From positions 1-34,280 of IMG/VR virus record IMGVR_UViG_3300020034_000050: a stretch of 34,280 nucleotides of DNA; one strand, written 5' to 3'. The notes beneath the pieces are model-generated. The model did not search any database, was not told the origin of the DNA, and was given only the letters and a program-made list of their open reading frames with translations. This DNA comes from a virus. Positions 10,924 through 26,127 of this stretch are shown here, in pieces (position 1 is the stretch's first letter; every line of letters starts with the position of its first letter). The position numbers and the translations under genes are program-made.

Positions 10924-10948
10924 CTCCCAAAGTAAAGGTTTTGGACAA

Positions 10949-11353: not shown

Positions 11354-11371
11354 CGCCCAACGCCAGGGCGT
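11353..11371 (+). other. Hairpin immediately after DUF3489 gene
   Basis: ACGCCC (11353-11358) pairs with GGGCGT (11366-11371) around a 7-nt loop, starting at the stop codon. There is no T-run, so it may stabilise mRNA or act with the terminator about 60 nt further on. Confidence 0.4.
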
Positions 11372-11431
11372 GTATCGTTCCGACGTGTTTGCTTCTCCAG
11401 CGAGCACTGCCTTTGCGGTTGAGATACCTTC

Positions 11432-11468
11432 GGCCGTCGCGCGCTCATCCGCTCGGCGGCCTTTTTTT
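11432..11468 (+). terminator. Rho-independent terminator of the early operon
   Basis: GGCCG (11432-11436) pairs with CGGCC (11457-11461), with further GC pairing inside, followed at once by seven Ts (11462-11468). It separates the early operon from the NusG-like gene. Confidence 0.75.
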
Positions 11469-11477
11469 GCCAAATAA

Positions 11478-11506
11478 TTGAAACAAAAGCGTCTTTCGTG
11501 CATACC
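11478..11506 (+). promoter_or_regulatory. Possible sigma70-type promoter of the NusG-like gene
   Basis: An AT-rich island follows the terminator. TTGAAA (11478-11483) is spaced 17 nt from CATACC (11501-11506), a weak -10. A start near 11513 would place the GAGGA site (11516-11520) and the ATG at 11531 in the leader. This is a weak match. Confidence 0.3.
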
Positions 11507-11530
11507 CGCGAAAGCGAGGACGCGAACCAC

Positions 11531-12130: not shown

Positions 12131-12199
12131 CTTTTCGCTGGGCTTTCACCCGGCCCTCCGGCGGTAGGAAAAAACCCACAAAACCGAGTAGCCCACACG

Positions 12200-12535
12200 A
12201 TGGCGAAACTGCGCTCGCTGGGCCCTGTCGTGCCCATGCTGGATACCCGCATTGCACGCATGCCCGAACGCAAACCCGATACGCTGTATGGCAGTGTCGA
12301 ATGGAAAGCCTTAGTCGCTTACCTGATCAAAACCCGAGGGCGCCAATGCGAACGCCCCGAATGTGGACGCACCCATTGTCGCATCTTCGGTGATCACATC
12401 GTGGAGCTAAAGGATGGTGGTGCACCCTTGGACGCCGGCAACGTCATGCTGCTATGCGGCTCCTGCCACACGACGAAGACCCATGTGGCGAAGCGTTTAA
12501 GAGAGGGGAGGGGTGTTGGCCCCTTCGGTGCCTGA
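12200..12535 (+). CDS. HNH endonuclease of the packaging module
   Basis: The 111-residue product is an HNH nuclease with metal-binding and catalytic elements CERPECGRTHCR, FGDHIVELKDGG, AGNVMLLCGSCHTTKT: the His of DHI, the Asn of GNV and the His of CHTTK, with four cysteines for a structural zinc. In HK97-like cos phages such a protein lies next to the terminase and is needed for cutting cos DNA during packaging. Here the small terminase gene is about 960 nt downstream on the same strand. The start is an ATG; no strong ribosome site is visible. The 69-nt gap to the NusG-like gene holds nothing I can name. Confidence 0.9.
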   Translation: MAKLRSLGPVVPMLDTRIARMPERKPDTLYGSVEWKALVAYLIKTRGRQCERPECGRTHCRIFGDHIVELKDGGAPLDAGNVMLLCGSCHTTKTHVAKRLREGRGVGPFGA

Positions 12536-12688
12536 GCACTGTAGCGCTTCACCACGACCACCCCGTTTGATGCAGTCCCCGCAGGGCTGGGCATCGACGT
12601 CTACCGCCCAGCATGGGGGTTCGAACGCAGCCCCGCACTTCAATGCGCAGGCCATCTGTACGTCATCAGTCCAAGCGTCCGCTCTCAT
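12497..12688 (-). CDS. Possible small Cys-rich minus-strand protein
   Basis: This is the only plausible minus-strand gene in the window. A 63-residue ORF starts with ATG preceded by a strong GGGAGGG site 4-5 nt upstream on its strand. The product has six cysteines in a zinc-ribbon-like layout (MACALKCG, PPCWAVD, QPCGDCIKRGG), which looks more like a real small protein than a shadow. It converges on the HNH gene and overlaps its last 39 nt. I cannot name a family, and GC-rich DNA gives many chance ORFs, so confidence is limited. Confidence 0.4.
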   Translation of the reverse strand: MRADAWTDDVQMACALKCGAAFEPPCWAVDVDAQPCGDCIKRGGRGEALQCSGTEGANTPPLS

Positions 12689-12785
12689 GCTGCCCTCCCT
12701 ATGGTGGGGCGGCTGCTGCACCCAGCCCCACACAGGGCCAACGGTGGCAACCACCGATCAATGCCTCGTGCCATCTGAGGGTGTG

Positions 12786-12913
12786 TGCCCCTCCCCCTTG
12801 CCCCTCGGTGTGCCAACGCGCGTGCATCGAAATGGTTAAAAAGAGGGGTGGGGTCAAAAGTCTGGCGGTTTTCGATGGTGCTAACGCTTTGGTTGCACGC
12901 GTATGTTTTTTTT
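12786..12913 (+). other. Structured, G-rich noncoding segment: candidate cos site and hairpin
   Basis: A C-rich run (12786-12808) is complementary in part to GAGGGGTGGGG (about 12843-12853). CGCGTGCA (12819-12826) is perfectly inverted at 12894-12901 (TGCACGCG) and followed by eight Ts (12906-12913). The motif GGGGTGGGGTCAAAAGTCTGG lies between. A G-run followed by GGTCAAA, between HNH and small terminase, recalls cos regions of cos-type phages. No convincing ORF covers it on either strand. The rest of 12,536-13,147 holds only the possible minus-strand gene. Confidence 0.45.
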
Positions 12914-13147
12914 CGCCCTGGCTGGAATCTTTCGTAGGGGTAGAACCGCCCGGCCTGGGGGCACACGTGGCCGCCGGCTGGCGATGCCGGCAGGAGCCGG
13001 TGCGTGGTGCCGCCCGAAACGCCGGCCGTACGCGGGCGCTCGTGGCCGCACTTCCCGTCCATAAACAGTTTTGCCGGCGCCGACGCTGCAGCTCGTTCCG
13101 AAATGGAACCGACTCGCCACGGGTGCTGGCCTGCAAGGCAGCGCGTC

Positions 13148-13303
13148 ATGGTCGGCCCGGTCGTCATGTTGGTGGTGATCCTGCTCTTCGTCGGGTTCCT
13201 GCCGACGTGGCCTTATAGCCAGGACTGGGGCGTCGGACCAAGCGCCATTCTGTTGCTCGTCCTGGTCGTGCTGCTCGGCGTCACGTTGAACGGAAGGCTG
13301 TAG
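13148..13303 (+). CDS. DUF3309 small membrane protein
   Basis: The 51-residue product matches the DUF3309 pattern: a hydrophobic helix (VVMLVVILLFVGF), LPTWPYSQDWGVGPS, then a second hydrophobic helix (ILLLVLVVLLGV). Two membrane passes are predicted. DUF3309 proteins are common in alphaproteobacterial genomes and of unknown function. The ATG start begins the hydrophobic helix directly; upstream in-frame extensions lack family character. The gene sits between the candidate cos region and terminase, so it may be a host-derived cargo gene. Confidence 0.75.
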   Translation: MVGPVVMLVVILLFVGFLPTWPYSQDWGVGPSAILLLVLVVLLGVTLNGRL

Positions 13304-13306
13304 CGA

Positions 13307-13486
13307 ATGATCAACCTCATCACTGTCGCTGCCGTTTTGTTTTTGATCGGCGTGATCTGCAACACCGTCGGCAAGAACTATGCGCCGCGCGCGTACCTCT
13401 GCGCTGTAGCGTGGCTGTTCGTTTGCGCCGCCGTCGTGTGCTGGTTCCTCGCGACATTTGTGCCGCCGCTCGGCCGCACGCTCTGA
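13307..13486 (+). CDS. Small two-helix membrane protein
   Basis: The 59-residue ORF begins 3 nt after the DUF3309 stop. It has two hydrophobic segments (VAAVLFLIGVI, and ALWLF-like AVAWLFVCAAVVCWFLATFV) joined by a short basic loop (GKNYAPRAY). It resembles small phage membrane proteins, but a holin role is not supported by its position or by any nearby lysin. It is too short for common ORF cut-offs. It is followed by the small terminase with a good ribosome site. Confidence 0.65.
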   Translation: MINLITVAAVLFLIGVICNTVGKNYAPRAYLCAVAWLFVCAAVVCWFLATFVPPLGRTL

Positions 13487-13498
13487 AGGAGAATTTCC

Positions 13499-13897
13499 GT
13501 GTCACTTCCCCATGTCCCGACCGTGAAGACGCGCGCCATCGCCGAGGCCGGCGCCGGTTTTGGGATTCCCCATGAAGCCATTGCGCGCCAGCTTGAGATC
13601 GATCCCAAGACGCTGCGTCTGCATTACGCCGACGAGCTGCGCTGGGGGGCGGACCGCGCGACGTTCGCGGTAGCCAACACGCTCTACAACATCGCGACCG
13701 ACAAGGCGCACCCCAAGTGCGCGCCGGCCGCCATGTTTTGGCTGAAGTGCCGCGCGGGCTGGAGCGAGTTCATGCCGGCCCCGTCGCCGCGCCCCGAGAC
13801 GGCGGTGCCGCTCGGCAAGAAGGAACAGGCGATGCTCGACGCGAACGACGTGCCCGAGGATTGGGGCGCCGTGATTCCGACCACGCCCCTGAATTGA
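13499..13897 (+). CDS. Terminase small subunit-like DNA-binding protein
   Basis: The 132-residue product has an N-terminal helix-turn-helix region (AGAGFGIPHEAIARQLEIDP, about 18-37) and a helical middle (FAVANTLYNIATDK, AAMFWLKCRAGW), the layout of small terminase-like proteins in alphaproteobacterial siphophages. These recognise the packaging site and feed DNA to the large subunit. The GTG start has AAGGAGA 7 nt upstream. It lies 4 nt before the large subunit gene, which supports the call more than sequence alone. The C-terminus is Pro-rich and may contact the large subunit. Confidence 0.78.
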   Translation: MSLPHVPTVKTRAIAEAGAGFGIPHEAIARQLEIDPKTLRLHYADELRWGADRATFAVANTLYNIATDKAHPKCAPAAMFWLKCRAGWSEFMPAPSPRPETAVPLGKKEQAMLDANDVPEDWGAVIPTTPLN

Positions 13898-13901
13898 TCC
13901 C

Positions 13902-15635
13902 TTGGAATCCACCGGGCTGATCACGGGGGGCATTGCCAATCGTTTCGCGTGCCCGGATTGGGAGGACCGCATCCGTGCCGGCGCGTCGCTCGTGCCGGAC
14001 GGGGCTCGGGGCATCAACCCGGAGCTGACCGAGCGCACCATCGGTATCTACAATCGCTTGCGGCTTCCCGACGTGATCGGCCAACCGAAGCTTGAGGTCG
14101 CGTCCGGCCCGTGGTTCCGCGAGGTCGTCGGCACTTTCCTCGGTTCAATCGACCCCGTGACGGGGCACCGGCTGATCCGCGAGCTTTTCATGCTCGCCCC
14201 GAAGAAGTCGAGCAAGACCAGCTATGGCGCGGCGCTCATGATGACGGCGCTGCTCTTAAACGACCGGCCGCGCGCGGAATTCCTTTTCGTCGCGCCGACC
14301 AAGTTGATCGCGGAGGTGGCCTTCAGCCAAGCGGCCGGCATGGTCCTGGCCGACCGTTCGGGTTTCCTGCAAAAACGTTTCCAGGTGCAGGACCACATCA
14401 AGGCAATATTCGACCGCAAGACCAAGGCGCGGCTGTTGATCAAATCCTTCGACGCGAAGGTGCTGACCGGCGTCAAGCCTGTAGGCACGTTCATCGACGA
14501 GCTGCACGAGATCGCGTTGAACGCGCGGGCGTCGGACATCATCGGGCAATTGCGCGGCGGCATGCTGCCGTTCCCCGAAGCGTTCCTGGCCTTCATCACC
14601 ACGCAGTCGAGCGACCAGCCGGCCGGCGCGTTCAAAGCCGAACTGCAAACCGCCCGCGCCATCCGTGACGGAACCGGCGACGGCGCGATGATGCCGATCA
14701 TGTACGAATTCCCGGAGTCGATCCTCCAGGACAAAAGCGAAGAGCCTGCGTGGATGAAGCCCGAGAACTGGGCGATGGTGTCGCCGAACCTCGGCCGCCC
14801 GTTCACCATCGAGCGGCTGCAGGAAGATTTTGAAACCGCGAAGACCAAGGGCAAGGACGAAATTTGCCGCTGGGCATCGCAGCATCTGAATATCGAAATC
14901 GGTTTGGCCTATTCCACCGACGCTTGGCCCGGCGCGGAGTTCTGGGAAGCTGCCGGCGACAAAGGACTCACCCTCGACGTTCTGCTCTCGCGCTGCGACT
15001 CGGTGACGTGTGGCATCGATGGCGGCGGCCTTGATGATCTGCTCGGCTTCGCGGTGCTCGGCCAGGACAAACGCAACCCGCATATGTGGCTTCATTGGGG
15101 TCATGCCTGGGCGCACACCAGCGTGCTTCGCCGCCGCAAAGAAATCGCACCGCGCTTGCTGGATTTCGCACGCGACGGTGACGTCACCATCGTGGAGCGG
15201 ACCGGCGATGACGTGCAGGCCGTCTGCAACATCATCGAGCGAATTTACAATTTGGGCCTGATGCCGCCCGCCAATTGCATCGGTGTTGATCCCATTGGCA
15301 TCGACCAGATCACGAACGAATTGTTTATGCGCGGGTTCAGCAAGGACCAGATTGTCGGCATCCCGCAGGGCTACAGATTGAATGGCGCGCTCGCCAGCGT
15401 CGAGCGTCGGCTGTCCGGCGGCGAGCTGACGCACGGCGCGTCCGACATGATGGCGTGGTGTGTCGGCAACTGCAAAATTGAACTCAAAGGTAATGCAGCG
15501 TCCATCACCAAACAGGTTTCGGGCAAAGCCAAGATCGACCCCGTCATCGCGCTCATGAATGCCTCGCGCGTCATGGCGCTCAATCCAAACGCCGGGGCGT
15601 CGGTCTACGAAGAGCGCGGTCTGCGGATCGCCTAA
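13902..15635 (+). CDS. terL: Terminase large subunit
   Basis: Predicted packaging motor ATPase/nuclease, 577 residues, of the HK97-type (Terminase_1) family. The ATPase has a Walker A-like APKKSSKTS (residues 98-106, Lys 105) and Walker B TFIDELHE (Asp 199, Glu 200). The nuclease half carries CGIDGGGLDDLLGFAVLG (Asp-led RNase H-like strand), a VDPIGID strand and the C-terminal HGASDMMAWCVGN motif. The start is a TTG 4 nt after the small subunit stop; no good ATG exists near the N-terminus and the ribosome site is weak. It translocates DNA into the prohead through the portal. Confidence 0.93.
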   Translation: MESTGLITGGIANRFACPDWEDRIRAGASLVPDGARGINPELTERTIGIYNRLRLPDVIGQPKLEVASGPWFREVVGTFLGSIDPVTGHRLIRELFMLAPKKSSKTSYGAALMMTALLLNDRPRAEFLFVAPTKLIAEVAFSQAAGMVLADRSGFLQKRFQVQDHIKAIFDRKTKARLLIKSFDAKVLTGVKPVGTFIDELHEIALNARASDIIGQLRGGMLPFPEAFLAFITTQSSDQPAGAFKAELQTARAIRDGTGDGAMMPIMYEFPESILQDKSEEPAWMKPENWAMVSPNLGRPFTIERLQEDFETAKTKGKDEICRWASQHLNIEIGLAYSTDAWPGAEFWEAAGDKGLTLDVLLSRCDSVTCGIDGGGLDDLLGFAVLGQDKRNPHMWLHWGHAWAHTSVLRRRKEIAPRLLDFARDGDVTIVERTGDDVQAVCNIIERIYNLGLMPPANCIGVDPIGIDQITNELFMRGFSKDQIVGIPQGYRLNGALASVERRLSGGELTHGASDMMAWCVGNCKIELKGNAASITKQVSGKAKIDPVIALMNASRVMALNPNAGASVYEERGLRIA

Positions 15636-15657
15636 CCCCATTTGGAGAAACACGCGG

Positions 15658-15849
15658 ATGGCCGACGGCACAGCGCGCACGGGCAAACCCCGCGTGGGCA
15701 TTCAGGACTTGCGCGAAGCCGCCGGTATCGTCGGCACGTTCATTCTTTCATATGGCCTATGGCTCGCCTGGCCGCCACTCGGGTTCATCTTCTTCGGATT
15801 GTTTCTCGTCGCGCTTTCGGTGCTCGGCACCCTGCTCGGTAATCGCTGA
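15658..15849 (+). CDS. Small membrane protein between terminase and portal
   Basis: The 63-residue product has a polar N-terminus (about 1-25) and two hydrophobic helices (IVGTFILSYGLWLAW and LGFIFFGLFLVALSVLGTLL). The ATG has GGAG about 10 nt upstream. Small membrane genes at this position are common in alphaproteobacterial siphophages but have no known role. Its stop shares one base with the portal start (TGATG). Confidence 0.72.
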   Translation: MADGTARTGKPRVGIQDLREAAGIVGTFILSYGLWLAWPPLGFIFFGLFLVALSVLGTLLGNR

Positions 15850-17195
15850 TGGGGTGGGTCGCGAAACTCGCGGGTGTCCAGGCCGCCGATGGTGGATGGG
15901 CAAACGATGACGACCGTTGGTACAGCGGCGAGACGAACCTGCCACGCCGGACCAATTCAGGCCGGCGCGTCACACCCGAACTCGCTTTGAATTTTTCCGC
16001 CGTCTATGCGGCCGTGAATCTGATGTCTAAGGCGATGGGCTCTATCCCGCTCGGCATGTACAAGCGCGACGCGCAAGGGCGTTACACCGAATGCCCCGAG
16101 CATCCGATTCATGATCTGCTCGCCTATCAACCGAACGCTTGGCAGACCGCGTTCGACTTCCGCGCAATGCTCATGATGCATGTCTGTCTGCGGGGGAACG
16201 GGTTCGCCGAGATCATTCCGGGCGCGCGTGGCTTCGCGCACAGCCTTGAGCCGATTCATCCCGATCTGGTCACCAAGGTCGACCAGCTCGGCGACGGGAC
16301 GCTTCGCTACTACGTGCAGGATGCGCGGCGCGGCCAGCGCATTTTGTTGCAGTCGGAAGTCCTGCATTTCCGCAGCCCGATTGCGCCGGCCGGTTTTCTT
16401 AGCGTCAGCCCCATCACCTACGCGCGCGAGACCATTGGCCTGGCGCTCGCGGCCGAAGAGCATGGCGCGCGCATGTTTTCCAATGGGGCCCGTCCGAGCG
16501 GTGTGGTTGAGATCGGCCGCAAGCTCAGCGACGCGTCCTTCGAGCGTCTGAAATCCGAATTTAATACGCTCTTCACCGGGCTCTCGAATTCGAGCAAGAC
16601 GCCGATCCTGGAAGAAGGCGCTGTCTTCAAGCCAATCACGATGACGGCCAACGACGCGCAGTTCCTGGGCTCGCGCGAGTTCCAGGTTGAAGAGATCGCG
16701 CGCTGGTTCGACGTGCCGCCCGTGATGCTCCACCACATGACGAACCAGTCTTCGTGGGGCACGGGCGTCGAACAGATCATGCTGGGCTTCGTCCGCAACA
16801 GTTTGATGCCGGTGATCGCCGGGTGGACGCAAGTCATTCGCCGCGACCTCATCATTGCCCCGCATGTGTACGAAGCGCGGTTTGACATCGAAGATCTTAT
16901 CGCCGGCGACGCAGCGGCGAAGTCGAACTTTTATCGCAGCATGGTGCTCGCCGGAATTCTCACGCGCAACGAGGCGCGCGAGGCGCTCGGCTACAACACG
17001 ATGGACGGATTGGACGAGCCGCTTGTCCCTGTCTCGACGGCCAAGGACGAAGAGCCGCCCGCCAATCCGAGGAAGAACAACAATCCCGCCGGCAACAACA
17101 ACGACACGTCGTCCACGTTGCTTGGACATAACGGCGGCCCGTCGCTCGATCCTGTCGGCGACGAGCATGCCAACCCGGAGACCACAAGCCAATGA
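15849..17195 (+). CDS. Phage portal protein, HK97 family
   Basis: Predicted dodecameric portal at one capsid vertex, the channel for DNA entry and exit; 448 residues. Portal features include YAAVNLMSKAMGSIPLGMY, HPIHDLL, the RGNGFAEI strand, EEHGARMFSNGA, a PVMLHHMTNQSSWGTG wing segment and IEQIMLGF-type helix, and the C-terminal LAGILTRNEAREALGYN (367 onward). The C-terminal ~60 residues are Asn/Pro-rich and look disordered. The gene overlaps the protease by 4 nt (ATGA). The C-terminal motif is repeated in the protease, as noted in the findings. Confidence 0.93.
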   Translation: MGWVAKLAGVQAADGGWANDDDRWYSGETNLPRRTNSGRRVTPELALNFSAVYAAVNLMSKAMGSIPLGMYKRDAQGRYTECPEHPIHDLLAYQPNAWQTAFDFRAMLMMHVCLRGNGFAEIIPGARGFAHSLEPIHPDLVTKVDQLGDGTLRYYVQDARRGQRILLQSEVLHFRSPIAPAGFLSVSPITYARETIGLALAAEEHGARMFSNGARPSGVVEIGRKLSDASFERLKSEFNTLFTGLSNSSKTPILEEGAVFKPITMTANDAQFLGSREFQVEEIARWFDVPPVMLHHMTNQSSWGTGVEQIMLGFVRNSLMPVIAGWTQVIRRDLIIAPHVYEARFDIEDLIAGDAAAKSNFYRSMVLAGILTRNEAREALGYNTMDGLDEPLVPVSTAKDEEPPANPRKNNNPAGNNNDTSSTLLGHNGGPSLDPVGDEHANPETTSQ

Positions 17196-18598
17196 ACTAT
17201 TCGCTCCTGCGCGCCGTCGCGCTCGGCAATGTCTGGGCCATCGAAGAATCCTACATGGAGAAACTTTGCTTCGTGCTGAATCGCAAGTTCAGCGACGAGC
17301 GGTTGTCGGCCGAAGAAATCGCCGCCATCAAATACGACGGCCCCTTGTTCGGATCGATGCAGCTTTGGTCGATTGACACACAGGTGTTTGTGCCGGCGGT
17401 GGCGGCGAATCAGGACGGTTCCTCCCCCGTCATGGCCGCCGCTGGCGGCGGTAGCGGCGGCGGCCCTGTACTCGCGGTGCTGAACATCACGGGTGTGCTC
17501 GCGCAGCATTCGCGGCAAGTGCAGAACCTCAGCGGGCCCACCGGCACGTCGACCGAGCAGATCACCAATAGCTTTCGCAGCGCGATGGCGGACCCCAATG
17601 TGAAAGCGCTGGTCCTGAATATCGATTCGCCGGGCGGCAACGTCTACGGCATTCAGGCGCTCGCGGACGAGATTTTCAAAGCGCGCGGCACGAAGCCGAT
17701 CATTGCGCAGGCGAACAGCACCACCGCGTCGGCGGCCTATTGGCTGGCCACGCAGGCGGACGAGATCGTCGCGACGCCGGGCGCCCAGGTCGGCAGCGTC
17801 GGTGCCTACACGGTGCATGAGGACCATTCGAAGAAGCTGGAAAACGACGGCGTGAAGATCACGTATGTCGCGGCCGGCAAACACAAGGTGGACGGCAACC
17901 GTGCATCCCCGCTTTCGCCCGACGCCAGCGAGCGTCTTCAAAAAATGGTCGACACGTACTACGGCGAATTCACCTCGTCGGTTGCTCGCGGTCGCGGCGT
18001 CAAAACGTCGGACGTCCGCAATGGCTACGGCGAAGGCGGCATGGAGCATTCCACGGCGGCGCTTCGCCTGGGCATGATCGATCGGATTGCGACTCTCGAC
18101 CAGACGCTCAAGCGTGTGGCGTCGATGAAGGCGCGGCCGGAAGGCTTGGCGGCGCGCGCGGAGACCATCACCCTGGAAACGCGGGCGGCGAACGAAGCCA
18201 CCGAGGTTCATCTGGTGGGCGAATTTCCACCGCTGCTTGCCGTGAGCGGTGCTCTGCTCGCAAACATCGATGCGCCACACGTCGTGTGGAATGCGGAGAC
18301 CGGCTCCCTGCTATTGATGCTCGCCAACGCGTCGGCCGCGTATCAATTCGTGAGTCGCGACATCGCCACGGACGTCTCCACATTCGCGCGCGTGTCGCTC
18401 GGTTCTGCAATCCAAACCAAGAGCGCTGTCGACGCGCTTCTGGCCGGTGTGCTGACTAACAACGATGCTCGTGCAGCACTCGGTTACAACAGCATCGACG
18501 GCGCTTTGATCGACGCAGCGGCGGTTGCCGCCGATCTGGCAGCAAAGGGCGCGGCCTTCCGTAAGCGTCGCCACGCCCACCGCATGCGGATGCCCTGA
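17192..18598 (+). CDS. S49 family (SppA-like) prohead protease with portal-like C-terminal motif
   Basis: Predicted serine peptidase that matures the capsid, 468 residues. The S49 core (about 90-300) has LVLNIDSPGGNV, the serine motif NSTTASAAYWLA (Ser 180 predicted nucleophile) and GKHKVDGN (Lys 230 or 232 as general base). A further ~150 residues follow the peptidase domain. They end with LAGVLTNNDARAALGYNSID (417-436), nearly the same as the portal C-terminal motif, then a basic tail. No separate scaffold gene lies before the capsid gene. The start overlaps the portal stop (ATGA). The peptidase call is strong; the role of the extension is unknown. Confidence 0.9.
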   Translation: MNYSLLRAVALGNVWAIEESYMEKLCFVLNRKFSDERLSAEEIAAIKYDGPLFGSMQLWSIDTQVFVPAVAANQDGSSPVMAAAGGGSGGGPVLAVLNITGVLAQHSRQVQNLSGPTGTSTEQITNSFRSAMADPNVKALVLNIDSPGGNVYGIQALADEIFKARGTKPIIAQANSTTASAAYWLATQADEIVATPGAQVGSVGAYTVHEDHSKKLENDGVKITYVAAGKHKVDGNRASPLSPDASERLQKMVDTYYGEFTSSVARGRGVKTSDVRNGYGEGGMEHSTAALRLGMIDRIATLDQTLKRVASMKARPEGLAARAETITLETRAANEATEVHLVGEFPPLLAVSGALLANIDAPHVVWNAETGSLLLMLANASAAYQFVSRDIATDVSTFARVSLGSAIQTKSAVDALLAGVLTNNDARAALGYNSIDGALIDAAAVAADLAAKGAAFRKRRHAHRMRMP

Positions 18599-18705: not shown

Positions 18706-20034
18706 ATGGACTTGATCAAGAAACTGCGCCAACAGCGCACCACGTTGATGGCCGAGGCGGCGAACCTCTTCGCAGGCGAGAGCCTTACGGCCGAACAAAT
18801 TTCCCGCGACGACGCGATCTCGGCTGAGCTGGCCGACGTGGACGCGCAGATCGCGCGGACCGAAGCGCACATGGAACGTCAGCGCGTATCCAACGACGTG
18901 CTCGGCTCGCAACAGCCTGTCGACAAGAAGAAGTTTTCCGGCCTCGGCGAACAGATGATTGCCGTCGCGCGTGCCGGCCAACCCCAAGGTCGCGCCTTTG
19001 TCGACCCGCGTTTGATCTACACCAACGAGGCCGGCGGCTCCGGTATCCAAGCGGCGACCGGCTTGTCGGAGGGCGTCGCGGTTGACGGTGGCTTTTTGGT
19101 CGACACCGACTTCGTGCCGGGCCTTCTGCAGAACGTGTACGAGAATGGCGAAATCGCCAGCCGCATTCGCAAGATCGGCGTCGGCGCGAATTCCAACGGC
19201 ATCCGCATCAATGGCGTGGACGAAACCAGCCGCGTCAACGGCTCGCGGTGGGGCGGCATTCAGATGTACTGGACCGGCGAAGCGCAGCTCAAGACCCCCA
19301 GCCAGCCCAAGTTCAAACGCCTCACCATGGAATTGGATAAGCTCACCGGCCTTTGCTACGCGACCGACGAGCTGCTCCAGGATTCCGCCGCGTTGGAAGA
19401 ATGGCTGAAGCAGGCGTTCTCCGATGAAATGACGTTCAAGCTGGAGGACGCCATCGTGAACGGCAACGGGTCGGGCATGCCGCTCGGCTTCCTGAATTCC
19501 GGCGCTGTCATCACCGTGGCCAAGGAAGCGTCCCAGGCGAACGCCACCATCGTCGCTGAGAACATCCTCAAAATGTGGTCGCGCATGCCCGCGCGCCTGC
19601 GGAAGAACTCGGTGTTCCTGGCGAACCAGGACGTCGAGCCCCAGCTCTACCAGCTCAATGTGAAGATCAAGAACGTCGCCGGGACTGAAAACGTCGGCGG
19701 CATCGCGATCCCGGCCGGCGTTGTGTACACGCCCGCTGGCATGAATGGCGTCGGCAATTACGGGACACTGATGGGGCGGCCTGTGATCCCCGTCGAATAT
19801 CTCGGCTCGCTCGGCACGCCCGGCGACATCGTGCTCGTCGATCTGTCCCAGTACCTGGGCATCGACAAAGGCCCGCTGCAGTCCGCGTCTTCGATCCACG
19901 TGCGCTTCATCTACGACGAGACGTGCTTCCGGTTTGTCTATCGCTTCAATGGCCAGCCGATCTGGTCTGCGGCGATGACGCCGTACAAGGGCACCAATAC
20001 GCAGTCGCCCTTCATCGTTCTCGCCCAGCGCTAA
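18706..20034 (+). CDS. Major capsid protein, HK97 fold
   Basis: Predicted coat protein, 442 residues. The N-terminal ~75 residues are helical and coiled-coil-like (KKLRQQRTTLMAEAANLF, DDAISAELADVDAQIART), matching the delta scaffolding domain of HK97-type capsid proteins that the S49 protease removes. The rest has typical HK97-fold features: AVDGGFLVDTDFVPGLL, LDKLTGLCYATDELLQD, EDAIVNGNGSGMPLGFL and VDLSQYLG. The start is an ATG with AGGAGA 9 nt upstream; an in-frame TTG at 18613 is rejected. It is probably the most abundant protein in the window, and a hairpin follows it. Confidence 0.95.
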   Translation: MDLIKKLRQQRTTLMAEAANLFAGESLTAEQISRDDAISAELADVDAQIARTEAHMERQRVSNDVLGSQQPVDKKKFSGLGEQMIAVARAGQPQGRAFVDPRLIYTNEAGGSGIQAATGLSEGVAVDGGFLVDTDFVPGLLQNVYENGEIASRIRKIGVGANSNGIRINGVDETSRVNGSRWGGIQMYWTGEAQLKTPSQPKFKRLTMELDKLTGLCYATDELLQDSAALEEWLKQAFSDEMTFKLEDAIVNGNGSGMPLGFLNSGAVITVAKEASQANATIVAENILKMWSRMPARLRKNSVFLANQDVEPQLYQLNVKIKNVAGTENVGGIAIPAGVVYTPAGMNGVGNYGTLMGRPVIPVEYLGSLGTPGDIVLVDLSQYLGIDKGPLQSASSIHVRFIYDETCFRFVYRFNGQPIWSAAMTPYKGTNTQSPFIVLAQR

Positions 20035-20111: not shown

Positions 20112-20603
20112 ATGGGTTCGAAGATCAGCTTCCCGTCCGAGTTCAAACTCGCCACGCTGCTTGAGCCTGCGGCTGACGCCGCCGGCCGCACTTCCGCCAT
20201 TGCGCATAGCCTGAAGAACACGGGCAAGGCGTATCTCATTTTCCACATCAATCAGGGCGCGGCGAACACCGTACTGCTCACGCCCATGCAAGCATCCGCC
20301 GTCGCCAAAACTGGCGGCAAGGTGCTCGCGAATGCGGTACCGATCTGGGTGAACCTGGACGGTGCGGCGGGCGACACGTGGGTGCGCGTTGCGGACGGCG
20401 TGAATTACACGACCGATGCGGGTGTGAAGATCAAACAGGTCTGTTTCGAGATCGACCCCGCGATGCTCGATATGACCAATAACTTCGATTGCATCTACGC
20501 CGTCACTGGCGCGTCCGCCGCTGGCAACATCACCTCGGCGCAGGTTCTGCATTGCGGCATGCGCTTCCAAGGCGGCCTCGTGCCGAGCGTTATCACCGAC
20601 TAA
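20112..20603 (+). CDS. Probable head accessory or decoration protein
   Basis: The 163-residue product begins right after the capsid gene with an AAGGAGAA site. It is beta-rich (AYLIFHINQGAANTVLL, VPIWVNLDGAAGDTWVRV, VKIKQVCFEIDPAML) with no catalytic motif. Position and composition fit a capsid decoration or cement protein, but I recognise no specific family, so the call is by context. It is bracketed by strong hairpins, suggesting a transcript level different from its neighbours, as expected for an abundant structural protein. Confidence 0.6.
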   Translation: MGSKISFPSEFKLATLLEPAADAAGRTSAIAHSLKNTGKAYLIFHINQGAANTVLLTPMQASAVAKTGGKVLANAVPIWVNLDGAAGDTWVRVADGVNYTTDAGVKIKQVCFEIDPAMLDMTNNFDCIYAVTGASAAGNITSAQVLHCGMRFQGGLVPSVITD

Positions 20604-20636
20604 TCGGCGGGCCCACCACCCTGAAATAAGCGCGAT

Positions 20637-20665
20637 CCGCGCCGAGCCACACTGGTTCGGCGCGG
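20637..20665 (+). terminator. Strong 12-bp hairpin after the decoration-like gene
   Basis: CCGCGCCGAGCC (20637-20648) pairs with GGTTCGGCGCGG (20654-20665) around a 5-nt loop ACACT, with one G-U pair. Only a short T tract follows (CGTTTC), so termination is probably partial. Confidence 0.6.
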
Positions 20666-20704
20666 CGGCGTTTCAACTCTTCGCCAAAAAAGGAAGCCAC
20701 CACA

Positions 20705-21070
20705 ATGTTCGTTCGCACGCTCATCGGCCGCAACGCCGGGCAGATCCAAGAACAGCCCTATCACGCCGCGACCGCGAACCTTGCCAACGGGACCGCCCTG
20801 CCCGTGACGGAAGATGAGATACGCGACGCTGGGATCGACGCCCCGCGCGGCCTGTCGTCTTCGGTTGAGAAAATGCCGGAAGGCTATCGTGTCGCCGACG
20901 ACGAGGAAGAAGGCTTTAACGTCTTCGCCCCGGACGGCAAAGAGATTCGCCGCACGCCCTTCAAGAATTTGGCCGAGGCCCGCGCCGCAGCAAACGCGCA
21001 CGCTCACGCTCACGCGGTCGCGGCGGACAAGCATCACAAGCCCGACCACAAGACCGATGCCAAACAGTAA
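20705..21070 (+). CDS. Unknown structural-block protein with His-rich tail
   Basis: The 121-residue product has an N-terminal region (FVRTLIGRNAGQIQ, HAATANLANGTALPVT), an acidic middle (ADDEEEGFNVFAPDGKEI) and a C-terminal tail of alternating Ala-His and Lys/His residues (ANAHAHAHAVAADKHHK). The His-rich tail could bind metal. It lies in the accessory block after the capsid gene. No family is recognised. The ATG is preceded by an Ala/Gly-poor AAGGAAG site. Confidence 0.65.
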   Translation: MFVRTLIGRNAGQIQEQPYHAATANLANGTALPVTEDEIRDAGIDAPRGLSSSVEKMPEGYRVADDEEEGFNVFAPDGKEIRRTPFKNLAEARAAANAHAHAHAVAADKHHKPDHKTDAKQ

Positions 21071-21377
21071 ATATCTCGGCGGCGGGACGGCACCTGTCCC
21101 CGGCCTGGGCAAGCAAATCGGAAAAGGCATACAGGCCAGCGGCCATTACGAGCCGTCACTCATGGCCGTTAAAATTCCGCGCTGCACGAAATGCCTTTCC
21201 GCAAACCGCAATCGCCTCGATCTCTGCGAAGTGTGCGGCGCGGATATGCCGCCCGACGTCGATCACCGCAGCATGGGCGCGCAGTTAGGCGGTGCGCTCT
21301 ATCCCTGGCACGCGCGCTTTTGCCTTTGGCTCGCGTCGAAGTTCACGAACCTTGCTAACCGTCTCGAAGGAGATTGA
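21057..21377 (+). CDS. Small zinc-ribbon-like protein
   Basis: The 106-residue product starts at an ATG inside the end of the previous gene (14-nt overlap). It contains CTKCLSANRNRLDLCEVCG (about 42-60), two CxxC pairs spaced as in a zinc ribbon, and a C-terminal aromatic helix (WHARFCLWLASKFTNLANRL). Zinc ribbons bind nucleic acid or act as structural modules. Nothing else identifies it, and being inside the structural block it may be a virion or assembly component. Confidence 0.65.
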   Translation: MPNSKYLGGGTAPVPGLGKQIGKGIQASGHYEPSLMAVKIPRCTKCLSANRNRLDLCEVCGADMPPDVDHRSMGAQLGGALYPWHARFCLWLASKFTNLANRLEGD

Positions 21378-21381
21378 TTCC

Positions 21382-21642
21382 ATGAACACGCGATTTGAAG
21401 TGCATGGCCGCAATGACACGAGGGTGGAAGTCGAAGCCGCTATGCCGGACGGCACGGTGGTGCAGGGTTTTATCCCCGCCTCCATCATTGAACTGGTTCC
21501 GATCAATGGCGGCAACACGCTCACCATTACGCGCCGCATGCCGACCGCCGAAGAGGCCGCAAGCGTGCAGGCGCTGTTCCCCATCGGTGGCGTGGTCGAG
21601 ATGGGCGAGTTCAGGCTCGTGACGCCGCCCGTCCTGGCTTAA
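21382..21642 (+). CDS. Small unknown protein of the structural block
   Basis: The 86-residue product begins 4 nt after the zinc-ribbon gene, with GAAGGAGA upstream of its ATG. It is beta-rich (FEVHGRNDTRVEVEAAM, VVQGFIPASIIELVPI, NTLTITRRM, VVEMGEFRLV) and has no cysteines or membrane segment. The regular strand pattern suggests a small sandwich or barrel. It has no recognised family; its place suggests a capsid-associated or assembly role. Confidence 0.62.
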   Translation: MNTRFEVHGRNDTRVEVEAAMPDGTVVQGFIPASIIELVPINGGNTLTITRRMPTAEEAASVQALFPIGGVVEMGEFRLVTPPVLA

Positions 21643-21689
21643 GCGCCGACCCTTTTCCCCACCGTAAATTCGCCCCAAGGAGAATCCCC

Positions 21690-22154
21690 ATGAACGCTGC
21701 CGTCCTCGGCGCGGCTGCCCGCCCGCGCTCTACCGTTCGCGACATCATCAAAGCTGGCTGTGTCCTGATGGCCGTCGCATTCGTGAACCTTGGCGCTGGC
21801 ATCATTTCGAACCGCGTCACCCAAGCAGGCACCGCGCCGAAGAACATCGGCTGGGGCATCGGTACCACGGCGGCGGCGATCACTCAGACCGCGCTCGTCA
21901 CCGAATCCGCGCCGACCACTTCGGGCGGCCGGACCGTCGGCACCGAGTCGCGCACCACGATCACCAACACCAACGACAATTATCAGGTGCTCGGGACGGT
22001 GACTGCAGCGGGCACCTTGGCGATCACCGAAGCGGGCCTGTTCGATGCGGTCACCACGGGCGTCATGCTTATTCGCGGCGACTTCGCGGCCATCAACGTC
22101 GTGTTGTCCGACTCCATCGCCTTCACGTTCGGCTTGAAATTCGTTCCGAACTGA
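21690..22154 (+). CDS. Probable structural protein with fibre-like beta motif
   Basis: The 154-residue product starts after AAGGAGAA. It has an N-terminal segment with a hydrophobic patch (GCVLMAVAFVNLGAGI), then a beta-rich half with a pattern I recognise from phage fibre and virion proteins: TALVTESAPTTSGG, YQVLGTVTAAGTLAITEAGLF, then MLIRGDFAAINVVLSDSIAF. This motif is common in siphovirus structural proteins of unknown placement. Here it follows capsid accessory genes, suggesting a head-associated component. Confidence 0.68.
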   Translation: MNAAVLGAAARPRSTVRDIIKAGCVLMAVAFVNLGAGIISNRVTQAGTAPKNIGWGIGTTAAAITQTALVTESAPTTSGGRTVGTESRTTITNTNDNYQVLGTVTAAGTLAITEAGLFDAVTTGVMLIRGDFAAINVVLSDSIAFTFGLKFVPN

Positions 22155-22160
22155 ATCGTC

Positions 22161-22601
22161 ATGGAATGGATCAGCGGTAACATTTTCATTCGCCGCAACG
22201 TGTTGCCGAAGATCGGCGACGCGACAAACGGGCACGGCCATAATTTCGATCACACGACCATCGTGTTTTCCGGCCGGGTCCGCGTTGTCGCGCGCGAGCC
22301 TGATGTCACCAAGCAAGCCGCTACGCCGAGCGGCGATCTGATTTTTGATAAGACCGGCAGCCCGATCTATTTCACGGTGCCGGGCAAAGTCATTGCAGAT
22401 CGCGAGTTCGGCGACGGCTCGCCCTTCGGCCGCCATTTCCTCGTCAAAGCGGGCGTCTGGCACGACATCACGGCAATGATGGACGCGACCGAATATTGGT
22501 GCGTCTACGCGCACCGCGAACCCCAGGCAGACGCGTCAGCGGTGAACACAGGCTGGGAAGTGTCGCAGGTCTTCACGGGTCATCGGCAGGCGTATGAGTG
22601 A
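22161..22601 (+). CDS. Cupin-like protein
   Basis: The 146-residue product has cupin-type features: NGHGHNFDHTTIVFSGRVRV near residues 23-42, with paired His residues followed by a Gly-turn and strand, and a later HDITAM...YWCVYAHR strand pair. Cupins bind a metal through such His residues and form barrel dimers. In a phage this may be a structural barrel, or an enzyme acting on sugars or surface molecules. The start is an ATG 7 nt after the previous stop; the stop shares a base with the next start (TGATG). Function is inferred only. Confidence 0.6.
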   Translation: MEWISGNIFIRRNVLPKIGDATNGHGHNFDHTTIVFSGRVRVVAREPDVTKQAATPSGDLIFDKTGSPIYFTVPGKVIADREFGDGSPFGRHFLVKAGVWHDITAMMDATEYWCVYAHREPQADASAVNTGWEVSQVFTGHRQAYE

Positions 22602-23017
22602 TGGCAGAGGTCGTCCTGCGCGTCCAAGACAAGGTCAATGATGACTTCTATCTGAACACGAAGTGCACCAAGCGCGGCGACATCATCGCGGTGCTGCCCG
22701 ACGGTTCGGACTGGGGCAGCGATGTTCGCACGCTGCCGTTCTATCGGATCATCAAACTGCCGAATGTATCGGTGGTCGAAGCGTCCGCAATGCTCGCCAC
22801 GGAATTGGATAGCGACGGCAACAATCCGTCGCGCACGCTGCAGCGCCGAAAGTTTCGCCTGGATATTGAAACGGCTGGATTGCCCGCAGCGTTCCTCACC
22901 TTCCTCGCGGACAACACGCGCGCGGCTCCGGCGTTCACGATCTCGCTTTCGGTCGCGCAGTTTCGCGCCCGCAAACTCGTGAAGGCCGTCATCATTGATC
23001 CGGCAGTGATCGGCTAA
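22601..23017 (+). CDS. Unknown structural-block protein
   Basis: The 138-residue product begins at an ATG sharing a base with the upstream stop; a GTG one codon earlier is possible. It is beta-rich with conserved-looking segments (VLRVQDKVNDDFYLNT, KRGDIIAVLPDGSDWG, PFYRIIKLPNVSVVEA, KFRLDIETAGLPAAFLTFLAD). The stretch GDIIAVLPDGSDWG is one I recall in phage proteins of unknown function encoded near capsid genes. It lies 3 nt before the large beta-helix gene and is probably translated together with it. Confidence 0.65.
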   Translation: MAEVVLRVQDKVNDDFYLNTKCTKRGDIIAVLPDGSDWGSDVRTLPFYRIIKLPNVSVVEASAMLATELDSDGNNPSRTLQRRKFRLDIETAGLPAAFLTFLADNTRAAPAFTISLSVAQFRARKLVKAVIIDPAVIG

Positions 23018-23020
23018 GCG

Positions 23021-25264
23021 ATGCCCACCACTGTCACCAAGACCATCGGAAGCAGTTCGCGGCAGTACGCCACCGTGCAGCTTTGGGAAGATGCGCTGCC
23101 CGCGAATCTGGTCTCCGGCGACACAGTACAGATCGGCGAATGTTACAACGACAGCGAGTTCACTACCTCTGGTCCGATCTTGCAAATCTCAGGCGAGACG
23201 ACCGACGCAACGCACACGATCACCCTCACATGCGCAGCCGGTCAAAGCTTCCGCGATCATGCGAGCGTGCAGACAAACGCGCTGCGGTACAACGCAAGCA
23301 ATGGCGTCGGCCTGCGCAAAACGAGCGGATATCTGGAAGGCATAATCGTCAGCGTTGCGAATGTCATTTTCGACGGGCTGCAAATTCGAGAAGACACCGG
23401 ACGTACTGTTCTCACGTATCTGTCTGGCGGGGCCTTTGTCTGTAACAACTGCATTGTTGAGGGCACGTTTACCGTCATGGTCGGCGAGGGTCTGACGGCC
23501 CACAATTCCGTTTTTATCATGAACAGCACGTATGCCGGATTCGCGATGAATTTCGGTTACACCAATTTCGTCAGCGACTTGTCCGGCTGCACGATTGTTC
23601 GACCGTCAAACCATACACCGCCGACCGGGGCCTGCTTTCACGCCGGTAGCGGCTCAGCGGCGCAAGTAATCAAAAACTGCGCGATCTTCGGGTTCACCCC
23701 GATCACCGACAACAATTCCAAGTTTTCCGGGACGAACAATGCGTCGGATGTGGCGAGCCTGGGTTTCGGGTCAAGTCATCAGACGAGCCTGACTTTTACG
23801 AGCCAGTTCGAGAATTCGTCGGCGGGATCGAGCGTGCACGACTTTCGTGCCAAGGCTGGCGGCGCGCTGATCGACAACGGCGTCACCGATACCAACATCA
23901 CCCCGGACATCGCGCGCACCGCGCGCCCGCAGGGTTCGGCTTACGACATCGGCGCTTGGGAACTGTCCGCTGGCGCGACCCCGATCCAGTACAATCAATC
24001 GATTCTGCGGACGACGACGCCCGCCCCGACGCTCTCGCGCCAGAGCGGCAAGCCGGTGCTGCGGTCCACGTCGCCGATCTCGTCGATCACGCGTCAGATC
24101 GCCCGGTCGCTTGTGCGCACCACGACGCCGGTCCCGTCACTCTCGCGCGCGATGGGCCGGTCGCTATTCGCAGCGACGACGCCAGCGCCCAGCATTTCCA
24201 AGCAGAAGGCGCGCGCGCTGAGGTGGACGACGTCCCCTGCCCCGTCACTGTCGCGTCAAACGTCAAAGGCGTTGCGCGCCGCCACCACGCCGCCGCCTAC
24301 GGTCACGAAGGCTTCTGCCCGGTCGCTTCTGCGCACGACGACGCCCGTGCCGGCCGTGGCAAAGGGAATGGCGCGCTCGGTCCAGGCGTCGACGTCGCCG
24401 GTCGCATCGGCGCTCGCCCAGAAGGCGTTCCTTCGGGCCCTGCAGGCCACCACGGCGCCCATTGCGTCTCTGGCGCACGTGGCCGCCAAAATGTTGCTCA
24501 GCGCCACGACGCCCGTCCCGAGCGTCGGCAAAGCCTCGTCCCGGTCGATCCGGGCAACCACGACGCCGACCCCGACCCTGATCCCGTCCCGCAGCGCCAT
24601 CCTGCTCACCTTGCAGGCGCTCGGGCTCGCGACGGCCTCGCTCTCGCGCCGGACCGCCAAGGGCCTCGCGGCGTCGACCACGCCGGCCCCTTCTGTAACC
24701 AAGGCGACCGGCCGGCAATTGCTCGCGTCGACCACGCCGGCCAGCTCGCTGTCGCGCGGCTTCGCGAAACTGCTCCGGGCGTCCGCGCTCATGATCGCCG
24801 ATCTGGCGACGATCTATTACCCCGGCGGCATCGCGCCGCCGCTCGATCCCATCGCGCTTTTCGTCCGCCGCGTGCGCGGGCTCTTCATCGCCCTCTTTCA
24901 CGGGAACCACATGCCAGCGGTTAGAGATCTTCCGCGCATCGCGGCCATCATTCAGAAGGCGACCATCGGCCTGGACTTCGGTCCCATGCTTCCGCCCGAC
25001 GTCGTGCTGTCCGGCACGCCGACGGTGACGATCAGCGTTCATTGCGGCACCGATGCATCGCCGCAAACGCGACTGACGCAGGCGGCCATCGTCGGTTCGA
25101 TCCCGATCTCTCACGGCGGGACCGGCGAAGCGAACACCGCCGTGCTTTTCCAAATGGGCAACACGCTCCCCGACGTCGTGTACCGCATCGTCTGCTCCTG
25201 CCCGATGACGAATGGCGATGTGGCTGTCGGCTGGACGCACGTGCCGTCCGTTACGCCGTCATAA
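23021..25264 (+). CDS. Beta-helix protein with fourteen 18-residue repeats, probable virion fibre or decoration
   Basis: The 747-residue product has three parts. Residues 1-320 look like a right-handed beta-helix domain ending in ALIDNG...RPQGSAYDIGAWE, the closing motif of choice-of-anchor/parallel beta-helix proteins. Residues about 328-595 consist of fourteen imperfect repeats, mostly 18 residues, with consensus L-x-x-T-T-P-x-P-S-L-S-R-x-x-x-R-x and a partial fifteenth. The C-terminal ~130 residues (PDVVLSGTPTVTISV, HGGTGEANTAVLFQ, YRIVCSCPMTNGDVA) resemble an Ig-like domain seen in phage structural proteins. I infer an elongated capsid or virion appendage that touches polysaccharide. No catalytic residues are recognised. 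Confidence 0.75.
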   Translation: MPTTVTKTIGSSSRQYATVQLWEDALPANLVSGDTVQIGECYNDSEFTTSGPILQISGETTDATHTITLTCAAGQSFRDHASVQTNALRYNASNGVGLRKTSGYLEGIIVSVANVIFDGLQIREDTGRTVLTYLSGGAFVCNNCIVEGTFTVMVGEGLTAHNSVFIMNSTYAGFAMNFGYTNFVSDLSGCTIVRPSNHTPPTGACFHAGSGSAAQVIKNCAIFGFTPITDNNSKFSGTNNASDVASLGFGSSHQTSLTFTSQFENSSAGSSVHDFRAKAGGALIDNGVTDTNITPDIARTARPQGSAYDIGAWELSAGATPIQYNQSILRTTTPAPTLSRQSGKPVLRSTSPISSITRQIARSLVRTTTPVPSLSRAMGRSLFAATTPAPSISKQKARALRWTTSPAPSLSRQTSKALRAATTPPPTVTKASARSLLRTTTPVPAVAKGMARSVQASTSPVASALAQKAFLRALQATTAPIASLAHVAAKMLLSATTPVPSVGKASSRSIRATTTPTPTLIPSRSAILLTLQALGLATASLSRRTAKGLAASTTPAPSVTKATGRQLLASTTPASSLSRGFAKLLRASALMIADLATIYYPGGIAPPLDPIALFVRRVRGLFIALFHGNHMPAVRDLPRIAAIIQKATIGLDFGPMLPPDVVLSGTPTVTISVHCGTDASPQTRLTQAAIVGSIPISHGGTGEANTAVLFQMGNTLPDVVYRIVCSCPMTNGDVAVGWTHVPSVTPS
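24002..24807 (+). repeat. Tandem 54-nt (18-residue) repeat array
   Basis: Fourteen full units plus one partial, mostly 54 nt, within the 747-residue protein. Units 8 and 11 are longer (about 20-21 codons), so spacing is not strict. Units have diverged in DNA more than in protein, pointing to an old array under selection on its fold. Phase is always a multiple of three. Confidence 0.85.
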
Positions 25265-25275
25265 AAGGACCGCGA

Positions 25276-26127
25276 ATGAATTCCCGAAGCACCAACGTCA
25301 TCGTTGCTGCAGTCACACGCACGCTCGCGCGCGTGAAGCTTCTGCGCGATCTGTTGGAAAAAACACAGGCTTGCACGGACGCACTGTTCGAATGGCTGTT
25401 GCTTTCGGCGTCCGCACAGGTGGAGGGCTATTGCCACCGCATCTTCGCGCGCGAGACGCTGCTCGACACGTTTCGCATCGACCGCAACGACACAATCAAC
25501 CGCATCGCGCTCAGTCGCTTCCCAGTGTCCGCGGTCTATGCCGTTGTCGCGCACGATCCTTGGAGGAATTCAGGCTGGTCGCTGCTTGCAAGCGCAATGG
25601 ACGCCGCGCAGCTAACCATGCCGTGCATTGCCGCTTTGGAAGTGCCAACCGAAGGCTACCCATTCAACGTCCTGGTAGGGATCGGCGACGGCGCTGAGGT
25701 GGTCCGCGTCACCGGCATCAACGCCGGCACGACGTACGACGTGGTGCGCGGCGTAAGCAACACGGCCACGGCGCACGCCAGCGGGGCCGTCGTGAACGTA
25801 GCCCTGCATCCGAGCCGCTACGAATACGATCCGCAGAACGGCCTCATCTGGCGCCTCGACACCGCCGGCGACCGTGCAGGGTGGAACGAGCGGGTGCTGG
25901 TCTGTTTTCAGGGCGGTTATCTGTTGCCGAACGATACGTCCCGCGATCTGCCTTGGGACATCGAAGACGCCACCATGAAGATGATGAATTACGCGTGGCG
26001 CTCGCGCGGGCGCGACCCGGCAATTCGCAGCATTTCCGAGCCGGGCATTGGACAGATTTCCTATTGGATTGGCACACCGCCGGACGTGATCGCCATCCTC
26101 GACGCTTATCGCGACTTGCGGCTGTAG
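25276..26127 (+). CDS. Head-tail connector (gp6-like) with inserted domain
   Basis: Predicted connector adaptor ring below the portal, 283 residues. The N-terminal part has the usual helical pattern (TRTLARVKLLRDLLEK, LFEWLLLSASAQVEGYCHRIF) followed by LSRFPVSAVYAVVA. The C-terminal part (DLPWDIEDATMKMMNYAWRS) also fits connector proteins. Between them, about residues 120-175, lies an extra segment with VGIGDGAEVVRVTGINAG and TAHASGAVV, a motif more often seen in fibre or baseplate proteins, making this longer than the usual 100-200 residues. The start is an ATG after AAAGGA. Confidence 0.8.
   Translation: MNSRSTNVIVAAVTRTLARVKLLRDLLEKTQACTDALFEWLLLSASAQVEGYCHRIFARETLLDTFRIDRNDTINRIALSRFPVSAVYAVVAHDPWRNSGWSLLASAMDAAQLTMPCIAALEVPTEGYPFNVLVGIGDGAEVVRVTGINAGTTYDVVRGVSNTATAHASGAVVNVALHPSRYEYDPQNGLIWRLDTAGDRAGWNERVLVCFQGGYLLPNDTSRDLPWDIEDATMKMMNYAWRSRGRDPAIRSISEPGIGQISYWIGTPPDVIAILDAYRDLRL

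Follow-up and report, generated by a model that had tools for sequence, protein, structure and literature searches.

The interval between the capsid and adaptor genes

The window, by which we mean the whole stretch of DNA analysed here, is IMG/VR virus record IMGVR_UViG_3300020034_000050, a linear virus record of 34,280 bases, and our subject is the block of genes that lies in it between the major capsid gene and the gene for the head-tail adaptor, or connector. The structural operon follows the pattern of an HK97-type head module, with terminase, portal and S49-type protease genes before the HK97-family capsid gene, then the block, the adaptor gene, and neck and tail genes. The major capsid gene (18706..20034, + strand; PF05065, expectation value (E) 1.1e-41; phrog_10, E 8.5e-46) flanks the block upstream and the adaptor gene (25276..26127, + strand; phrog_442, E 9.7e-15) flanks it downstream. 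An earlier reading made from the letters without database searches (the sequence-only reading) had counted seven genes in about 5 kb here, and had called them an accessory block that suggested an elaborate capsid surface or appendage system. The length was right, since 5.2 kb coding on the + strand separate position 20034 from 25276, but the number of genes was not: we found eight open reading frames (ORFs), g1 to g8. Their guanine-plus-cytosine content (GC) by codon position was like that of the phage's other structural genes, the likeness being weakest for g3 (GC at third positions, GC3, 0.67-0.68).

Head genes and a cargo slot

We gathered relatives via the capsid protein, which yielded 38 viral loci and 35 loci of bacterial genomes, the latter including Rhizobium, Hansschlegelia, Methylobacterium and Aminobacter. 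Profile searches for core and cargo genes covered these 73 loci and the window, 74 sources in all; L-numbers below denote relatives' loci. Some loci overlap by contig or come from near-identical phages (L017/L053, L019/L055, L022/L057, L168/L175-L177, L185/L186), and therefore the counts given throughout are not independent.

The g1 gene (20112..20603, + strand) was present in 58 of the 74 sources, each time no more than 900 bp after the capsid gene, and 15 of 32 members of its family matched phrog_28483; against the Protein Data Bank (PDB), the sole matches of the g1 profile were at E 0.38 and 0.7. The g2 gene (20705..21070, + strand), whose family counts 27 members at inclusion level, encodes a core protein of the head module, and the C-terminal tail of this protein varies. 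The sequence-only reading had described this protein as His-tailed, and six histidines do stand in its last 40 residues, but the feature is peculiar to this phage, the other 26 g2 proteins having 0 to 3. Capsid and connector genes were both found in 55 sources (27 with g1 and g2, 19 with g1 only, 9 with neither). Where g1 and g2 were both present, the gap between g2 and the connector gene was at most 237 bp, or the two overlapped, in 23 sources, and it exceeded 500 bp in four: 1167 bp in L058, 1715 bp in L023, 4205 bp in the window and 5563 bp in L021. Gaps above 500 bp were also seen in 6 of the 19 sources with g1 only and in 0 of the 9 with neither gene; the gap figure for L080 ignores a second copy of g1.

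Taken together, the comparison indicates that g1, a conserved head protein, and g2 are normal head genes of this phage group and not cargo, which rules out the idea that all genes in the block are unusual. The odd part is therefore what comes after g2, the 4.2 kb from 21057 on. Between g2 and the adaptor gene, the head operon of this group has a slot for cargo, which stands empty in most relatives. As side observations on the head genes, the g1 family stands in two tandem copies in L080 (3496-4521), and the head modules of L026, L027 and L028 each contain two adjoining capsid homologues, with 38% and 54% identity.

Collagen-repeat proteins (PF01391, E 3e-17 to 5e-18) form slot cargo in L021, L022 and L058, and other, unlike proteins occupy the equivalent place in L023, L029, L030, L032, L041, L042, L048 and L080. 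A family scan of the cargo of L023, L029, L030, L032, L041 and L080 gave matches in L041 only, namely sub-threshold DUF1565 and a baseplate-wedge PHROG. Several slot proteins look beta-helical or lectin-like by eye; because none of the ten stalk or slot proteins tried matched Pfam above cut-off, the word lectin-like for the heads of such proteins expresses a visual impression. In virus contig L021, a 1020-residue protein with a flavin adenine dinucleotide (FAD)-oxidoreductase domain (PF12831, E 3e-43) lies between the capsid and connector genes (14265-17327). By eye, small Cys-motif, zinc-ribbon-like proteins stand beside beta-helix-like cargo in L048 (12440-12607) and L012 (3560-3826), like g3 in the window.

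Architecture of g8

The last gene of the block, g8 (23021..25264, + strand), encodes 747 residues over its whole ORF. An AlphaFold2 run with 29 aligned sequences gave a model that is confident for residues 1-322, and in this model the N-terminal head (23021..23980, + strand) is a right-handed parallel beta-helix of residues 1-315 with its first strand at residues 3-9. VIA-align matched the head to a glycoside hydrolase (Z 20.3 over 247 residues, 3.2 Å), a PL6 alginate lyase (19.4), pectin methylesterases (about 18) and the tailspikes of Fri1 (17.1) and Sf6 (16.3), and Foldseek gave six matches at E <= 0.001, all alginate or pectate lyases and pectin methylesterases. The profile of this segment (g8N) found no match in the PDB. 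The near-invariant positions of the head alignment point, by eye, to no catalytic site, and therefore binding and cleavage are both possible for the predicted head.

The sequence-only reading had called g8 a giant beta-helix protein, which fits the head but not residues 331-586, the stalk (24011..24775, + strand), which is an array of Thr/Pro-rich, basic 18-residue repeats. The 256 residues of the stalk comprise 35 Lys or Arg, no Asp or Glu, and 103 Thr, Ser or Pro. Identity at lag 18 was 0.29, a value reached by none of 2000 shuffles (lags 10-40), and none of 78 segments of equal length from eight other window proteins was free of acidic residues. No relatives were confirmed for the C-terminal 149 residues (24815..25264, + strand) as a single query (0 of 17 candidates), and the notion that they correspond to a stand-alone, immunoglobulin-like capsid-region protein of other phages was thus not supported.

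g3, g4, g5 and the stalk form module A

With g5 (21690..22154, + strand) as the query we retrieved 64 viral loci, 21 of which (L168-L188) showed 61-76% identity in the best segment, and all 64 were examined for neighbours. The 21 closer loci contained g3 in every case, g4 in 18 (not L170, L185 and L186) and the repeat array in 18 (not L174, L180 and L184), in the order g3, g4, g5, array; among the remaining 43, g3 was found in 3, g4 in 14 and the array in none. In ten of the 21, a gene for the head, the adaptor or packaging could be recognised within the 6-kb flanks. A profile of the array, run over 15,418 ORFs of 232 sources, matched 20 ORFs; these come from the window and 18 loci, 19 sources that all have g5. 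L187 and L183 are counted here on matches that are short and weak (E 2e-4 and 3e-5, respectively). The arrays of L169 and L171 are similarly basic (50:1 and 35:0 for K/R to D/E), those of L172 and L178 less so (23:6 and 31:12). These results show that g3, g4, g5 and the stalk are co-inherited as a unit, which we call module A. The homologous arrays in 18 other loci also ruled out the repeats or the reading frame as an artefact.

The g3 protein (21057..21377, + strand) has two CxxC knuckles, whose four cysteines are invariant in 12 of 12 aligned sequences, and a C-terminal helix-like segment. The zinc ribbon noticed earlier was thus confirmed, with the window protein itself scoring below the cut-off of the Pfam family DZR. 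The g4 gene (21382..21642, + strand) encodes a small conserved protein whose profile had no match in the PDB. As single queries, g4 retrieved nothing and g3 one weak locus; relatives of both surfaced only after hidden Markov models had been built on the g5 loci.

The g5 protein is well conserved across the module A loci. Its earlier description as fibre-like is supported by PF23140 (podophage fibre protein, Gp80 family), which 23 of 25 family members matched at E <= 0.01, with the window's own g5 at 18.5 bits against a cut-off of 27. In the PHROG collection, the same 25 members matched phrog_5417 (unknown, 23 members), phrog_240 (head protein, 11), phrog_4176 (tail fibre, 7) and phrog_20420 (virion structural, 6). 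A tblastn search of named phages gave three records for g5, one of them annotated as a tail collar fibre protein, and, within the limits used, none for g1, g6, g7 or g8. Five genomes holding relatives of the capsid protein contained no g5.

We compared the N-terminal segments of 13 array proteins. ORFs in these scans were taken between two stop codons or from the first possible start, so that the segments of L168, L172 and L179 include non-coding extension. Only L169 and L182, and L168 and L179, formed similar pairs. The mostly unlike segments show, therefore, that a common stalk carries different heads, that is, heads are exchanged on a shared stalk.

g6, g7 and the beta-helix form module B

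The g8 query retrieved five viral loci, three of which have g6 (22161..22601, + strand in the window) and g7 (22601..23017, + strand) directly upstream. A g6 search matched 93 loci, 80 of which were kept, and in the resulting pooled set g6 was found in 81 sources, g7 in 36 and g8N in 39. Both g6 and g8N accompanied g7 in 36 of 36 pooled sources, and 45 had g6 without g7. Because the pooled g7 counts come from ORFs of loci fetched mainly via g6, the seven loci retrieved with g7 as the query provide a less circular test of co-occurrence, and all seven contained g6 and the beta-helix. The order was g6, g7, g8N, except in L090 (g7 before g6), and L103 has a second g7. We conclude that g6, g7 and the beta-helix are co-inherited as a unit, module B.

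Module B lies between the capsid and adaptor genes in the window, L007 and L009, downstream of the capsid and portal genes and upstream of a distant adaptor gene in L102, and downstream of the capsid gene and an SU10-type adaptor gene (PF24175 family) in L094 and L097. The phages that carry it have major head proteins of phrog_10, 283, 1328 and 1357. Given these varied positions and four families of major head protein, module B is therefore portable across unrelated capsids. In L102, about 7.7 kb of further ORFs (9529-17189) lie between module B and the adaptor gene, including a methyltransferase (PF13847) and a match to glycosyltransferase family 9, from which surface glycan modification is possible. 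L012 (4555-13938) and L013 (10411-19794) encode a relative of g8 with 3127 residues, which shares the N-terminal domain of g8 but continues into long arrays of other repeats, each of roughly 20 residues.

The histidines H25, H27, H31 and H101 of g6 are invariant in 7 of 7 aligned sequences and form an HxHxxxH...H pattern of the kind found at the metal site of cupins. The classical cupin motif has Glu where g6 has His. The six best PDB matches of the g6 profile were all cupins, at weak E-values of 0.017-0.037, and Pfam gave no match; the cupin-like assignment of the sequence-only reading has weak profile support and agrees with the invariant histidines. For g7, AlphaFold2 gave a model with a mean predicted local distance difference test score (pLDDT) of 91.6 and a predicted template modelling score (pTM) of 0.83. 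This model had no Foldseek match at E <= 0.001 in the PDB or BFVD, and its best VIA Z was 2.9, so that g7 is a conserved protein without a matching known fold. The predicted fold is possibly new, although a missing Foldseek or VIA relative does not prove novelty. No g7 locus was found in the genome contigs searched, and in 385 genomes of the Rhizobium lentis class g7 had 0 matches and g5 one weak match (E 6.5e-4), a search without a positive control whose empty result shows little.

The two modules are fused in frame

Between the head and the stalk of g8 lies the sequence YNQSIL (23990..24007, + strand). Six-frame ORFs totalling 2.70 M residues contained 14 instances of the corresponding motif, [FY][NT]Q[ST].[LI], 9 of them in the 20 array ORFs; the motif was chosen after inspection. 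In g8 the head of module B continues in frame into the stalk of module A, so that the protein is a chimera of the two.

We asked whether the block could have come together by chance, from unrelated and possibly decaying genes without joint function. Cargo of various sizes and without common ancestry is accepted in the slot, as a neutral insertion site would allow. However, every ORF is open and has a normal GC pattern by codon position, the gene content and order of the two modules are kept across dozens of contigs, and head and stalk are fused in frame at a recurring junction motif. A chance assembly is already hard to hold given this co-inheritance, and we consider it very improbable.

A proposed surface fibre with an exchangeable tip

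We propose that the slot holds a composite appendage locus encoding a fibre with an exchangeable N-terminal tip on the particle, and we put the probability of this reading at roughly 0.58. Module A would supply the virion-side parts (the g3 zinc ribbon, g4 and g5) and the long basic repeat stalk, and module B would supply the tip and two helper proteins. The two modules would meet in g8, with the N-terminal beta-helix as the exchangeable tip and the C-terminal repeats as the stalk, and tips may be exchanged by recombination upstream of the stalk. The g5 protein, a candidate partner of the stalk, would be the likely base or adaptor of the fibre, and g6 and g7 would be partners travelling with the beta-helix. 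Once assembled, the fibre would be attached to the particle at a vertex or the neck and may bind polysaccharide on host cells or in the surroundings, which would draw the phage towards its host ahead of tail engagement. We infer the presence of the products in virions, the attachment site, the role of g5 as the base, the partnership of g6 and g7 with the head, the carbohydrate target and the N-terminal position of the tip.

Of the readings considered, an appendage or adhesin system has the strongest support, on the basis of the lyase- and tailspike-like beta-helix, the repetitive stalk, the fibre-family partner g5, and the collagen-like and other surface-type slot cargo, and an appendage on the virion surface is the best reading of the block. 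To this extent the sequence-only reading agrees with ours. The decorated capsid surface that it also considered was not demonstrated: g1 and g2, out of eight genes, are ordinary members of the head module, and the signal-peptide-like starts of certain slot proteins would suit secretion instead.

Several points weigh against such a fibre. That the products are present in the virion is a prediction from the genes. Confidence of the g8 model is low beyond residue 322, in the stalk and the C-terminal part, and the g5 profile matched no PDB chain at E <= 1. An N-terminal tip is the reverse of usual phage fibres. The cargo of L021, L022, L023 and L058 starts with signal-peptide-like sequence (by eye). 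Module B also occurs outside the capsid-connector slot, in the portal-capsid interval of L002, in the terminase-portal interval of L004 and, in L003, beside large fibre-like genes in a neighbourhood that looks by eye like a tail-fibre region, and because it moves between phages whose capsids are unrelated, a dedicated docking site on the capsid is less likely.

The L003 neighbourhood would suit fibres anchored at the neck or tail and not on the capsid, with genes that adjoin the adaptor gene because their products assemble with the adaptor. The stalk gene stands directly before the adaptor gene in the window, in L171, where the connector gene directly follows that of the array protein, and in L182, where the connector ORF overlaps the end of the array gene; module B follows a PF24175-family adaptor gene in L094 and L097; and long fibres anchored at the neck are reported for phage A-1(L). 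However, L173 has module A downstream of the adaptor gene and L004 has module B upstream of the portal gene, so that the modules keep no fixed place relative to the adaptor; nor do the collagen and other proteins found in the slot show any special link to the neck. We regard neck or tail anchoring as unlikely, though worth keeping in view.

The signal-peptide-like starts, found by eye in cargo of Methylobacterium-type prophages, would agree with cargo that is not bound to virions, that is, with secreted or cell-surface proteins made from the head-operon promoter late in infection or in lysogens, in the manner of moron or lysogenic-conversion genes. Relatives' loci in Rhizobium, Hansschlegelia and Methylobacterium genomes, some in megabase contigs, and the FAD-oxidoreductase domain in L021 are also consistent with this possibility. 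In the window, however, no obvious signal peptide was seen by eye in g3 to g8, g5 groups with fibre, head and virion structural families, and module B occurs also in contigs with large portal and SU10-type adaptor genes. We consider secreted cargo improbable as an explanation of the block.

A more far-reaching version of the surface-fibre proposal, which we offer tentatively and hold to be rather doubtful as a whole, is a plug-in system in which the g3-g4-g5 anchor and polybasic stalk would accept interchangeable N-terminal heads, some with helpers (g6 and the possibly new-fold g7), preferably in the capsid-connector slot and with the binding head opposite to that of classical tail fibres. Modular phage adhesin loci are already known; modules A and B are apparently undescribed, within limited searches, and no description of the locus stood out in the open-licence literature searched, a search far from exhaustive. 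If the surface-fibre proposal is true, the locus would provide defined genetic parts for re-equipping particles with new surface-binding tips while capsid and tail genes stay untouched, and a candidate class for those capsid or neck fibres of alphaproteobacterial phages whose genes have still to be identified. It would also present two testable unknowns, g7 with its unmatched fold and a repeat stalk that is strongly basic and lacks acidic residues. Scattered 'hypothetical proteins' of viral contigs also become two co-inherited modules.

Other features of the window

The adaptor has 283 residues, compared with about 190-226 in relatives, and its residues 126-174 match the tail-fibre PHROG phrog_38058 (E 1e-3); because of this internal match and the greater length, the adaptor may contain an inserted domain. 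Residues 416-437 of the S49 protease (17192-18598) match the C-terminal part of the portal proteins of L015, L016 and L018 at 68-73%, a C-terminal motif thus common to the protease of the window and the portal proteins of these relatives. Upstream of the structural operon, a NusG-family protein (11498-12130; PF02357, E 1.6e-16) is a candidate phage antiterminator. A homologue of the cell-cycle regulator GcrA (PF07750) adjoins an MT-A70 methyltransferase (PF05063), and an N4/N6 DNA methylase (PF01555) is also present (849-2650 and 7965-9308), parts of alphaproteobacterial cell-cycle control carried by the phage. Tandem 16-bp repeats with TTTCACGAA-type units at 7698-7779 are possible iterons.

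Comparison with known systems

Background for this comparison comes from PMC12796354, PMC8310070, PMC7296036, PMC10218006, PMC11821841 and PMC10966104. The head spike of the Rhodobacter capsulatus gene transfer agent (RcGTA) is described there as a pentameric base, the jellyroll protein Rcc01079, with a flexible fibre, Rcc01080, that binds polysaccharide (capsule) and is anchored by an N-terminal peptide of alternating Ile/Leu-Gly. As an alphaproteobacterial HK97-type particle with a small beta-rich base and a flexible polysaccharide-binding fibre, RcGTA is a functional parallel to the proposed fibre. In contrast, g8 begins MPTTVTKTIG and passes directly into the beta-helix, without an Ile/Leu-Gly anchor, and has a stalk of basic 18-residue repeats, and no sequence link to RcGTA was found (g5 profile against the PDB, E <= 1).

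The tailspikes of Sf6 and Fri1 resemble the modelled head of g8 as right-handed parallel beta-helices (VIA Z 16-17). Unlike tailspikes of the P22/Sf6 kind, g8 has no N-terminal virion-binding domain, the helix starting at residue 3; the helix is followed by a repeat stalk, and the gene lies among head genes. TM1459 is a cupin that binds Mn with four histidines. The g6 protein is like it in the profile match and the HxHxxxH...H pattern, but the E-values are marginal and g6 is found in phage structural operons. Collagen-like phage structural proteins occupy the same slot in L021, L022 and L058, and are unrelated in sequence to g3-g8.

For Agrobacterium phage 7-7-1, which has a contractile tail, one capsid fibre per vertex is described that wraps around and grips flagella, making the first contact before the tail; the structure of this fibre is still unknown according to the paper. 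By description, these capsid fibres are a precedent for the fibre that we predict here from genes. The host of phage 7-7-1 and several of the window's relatives fall in one bacterial order.

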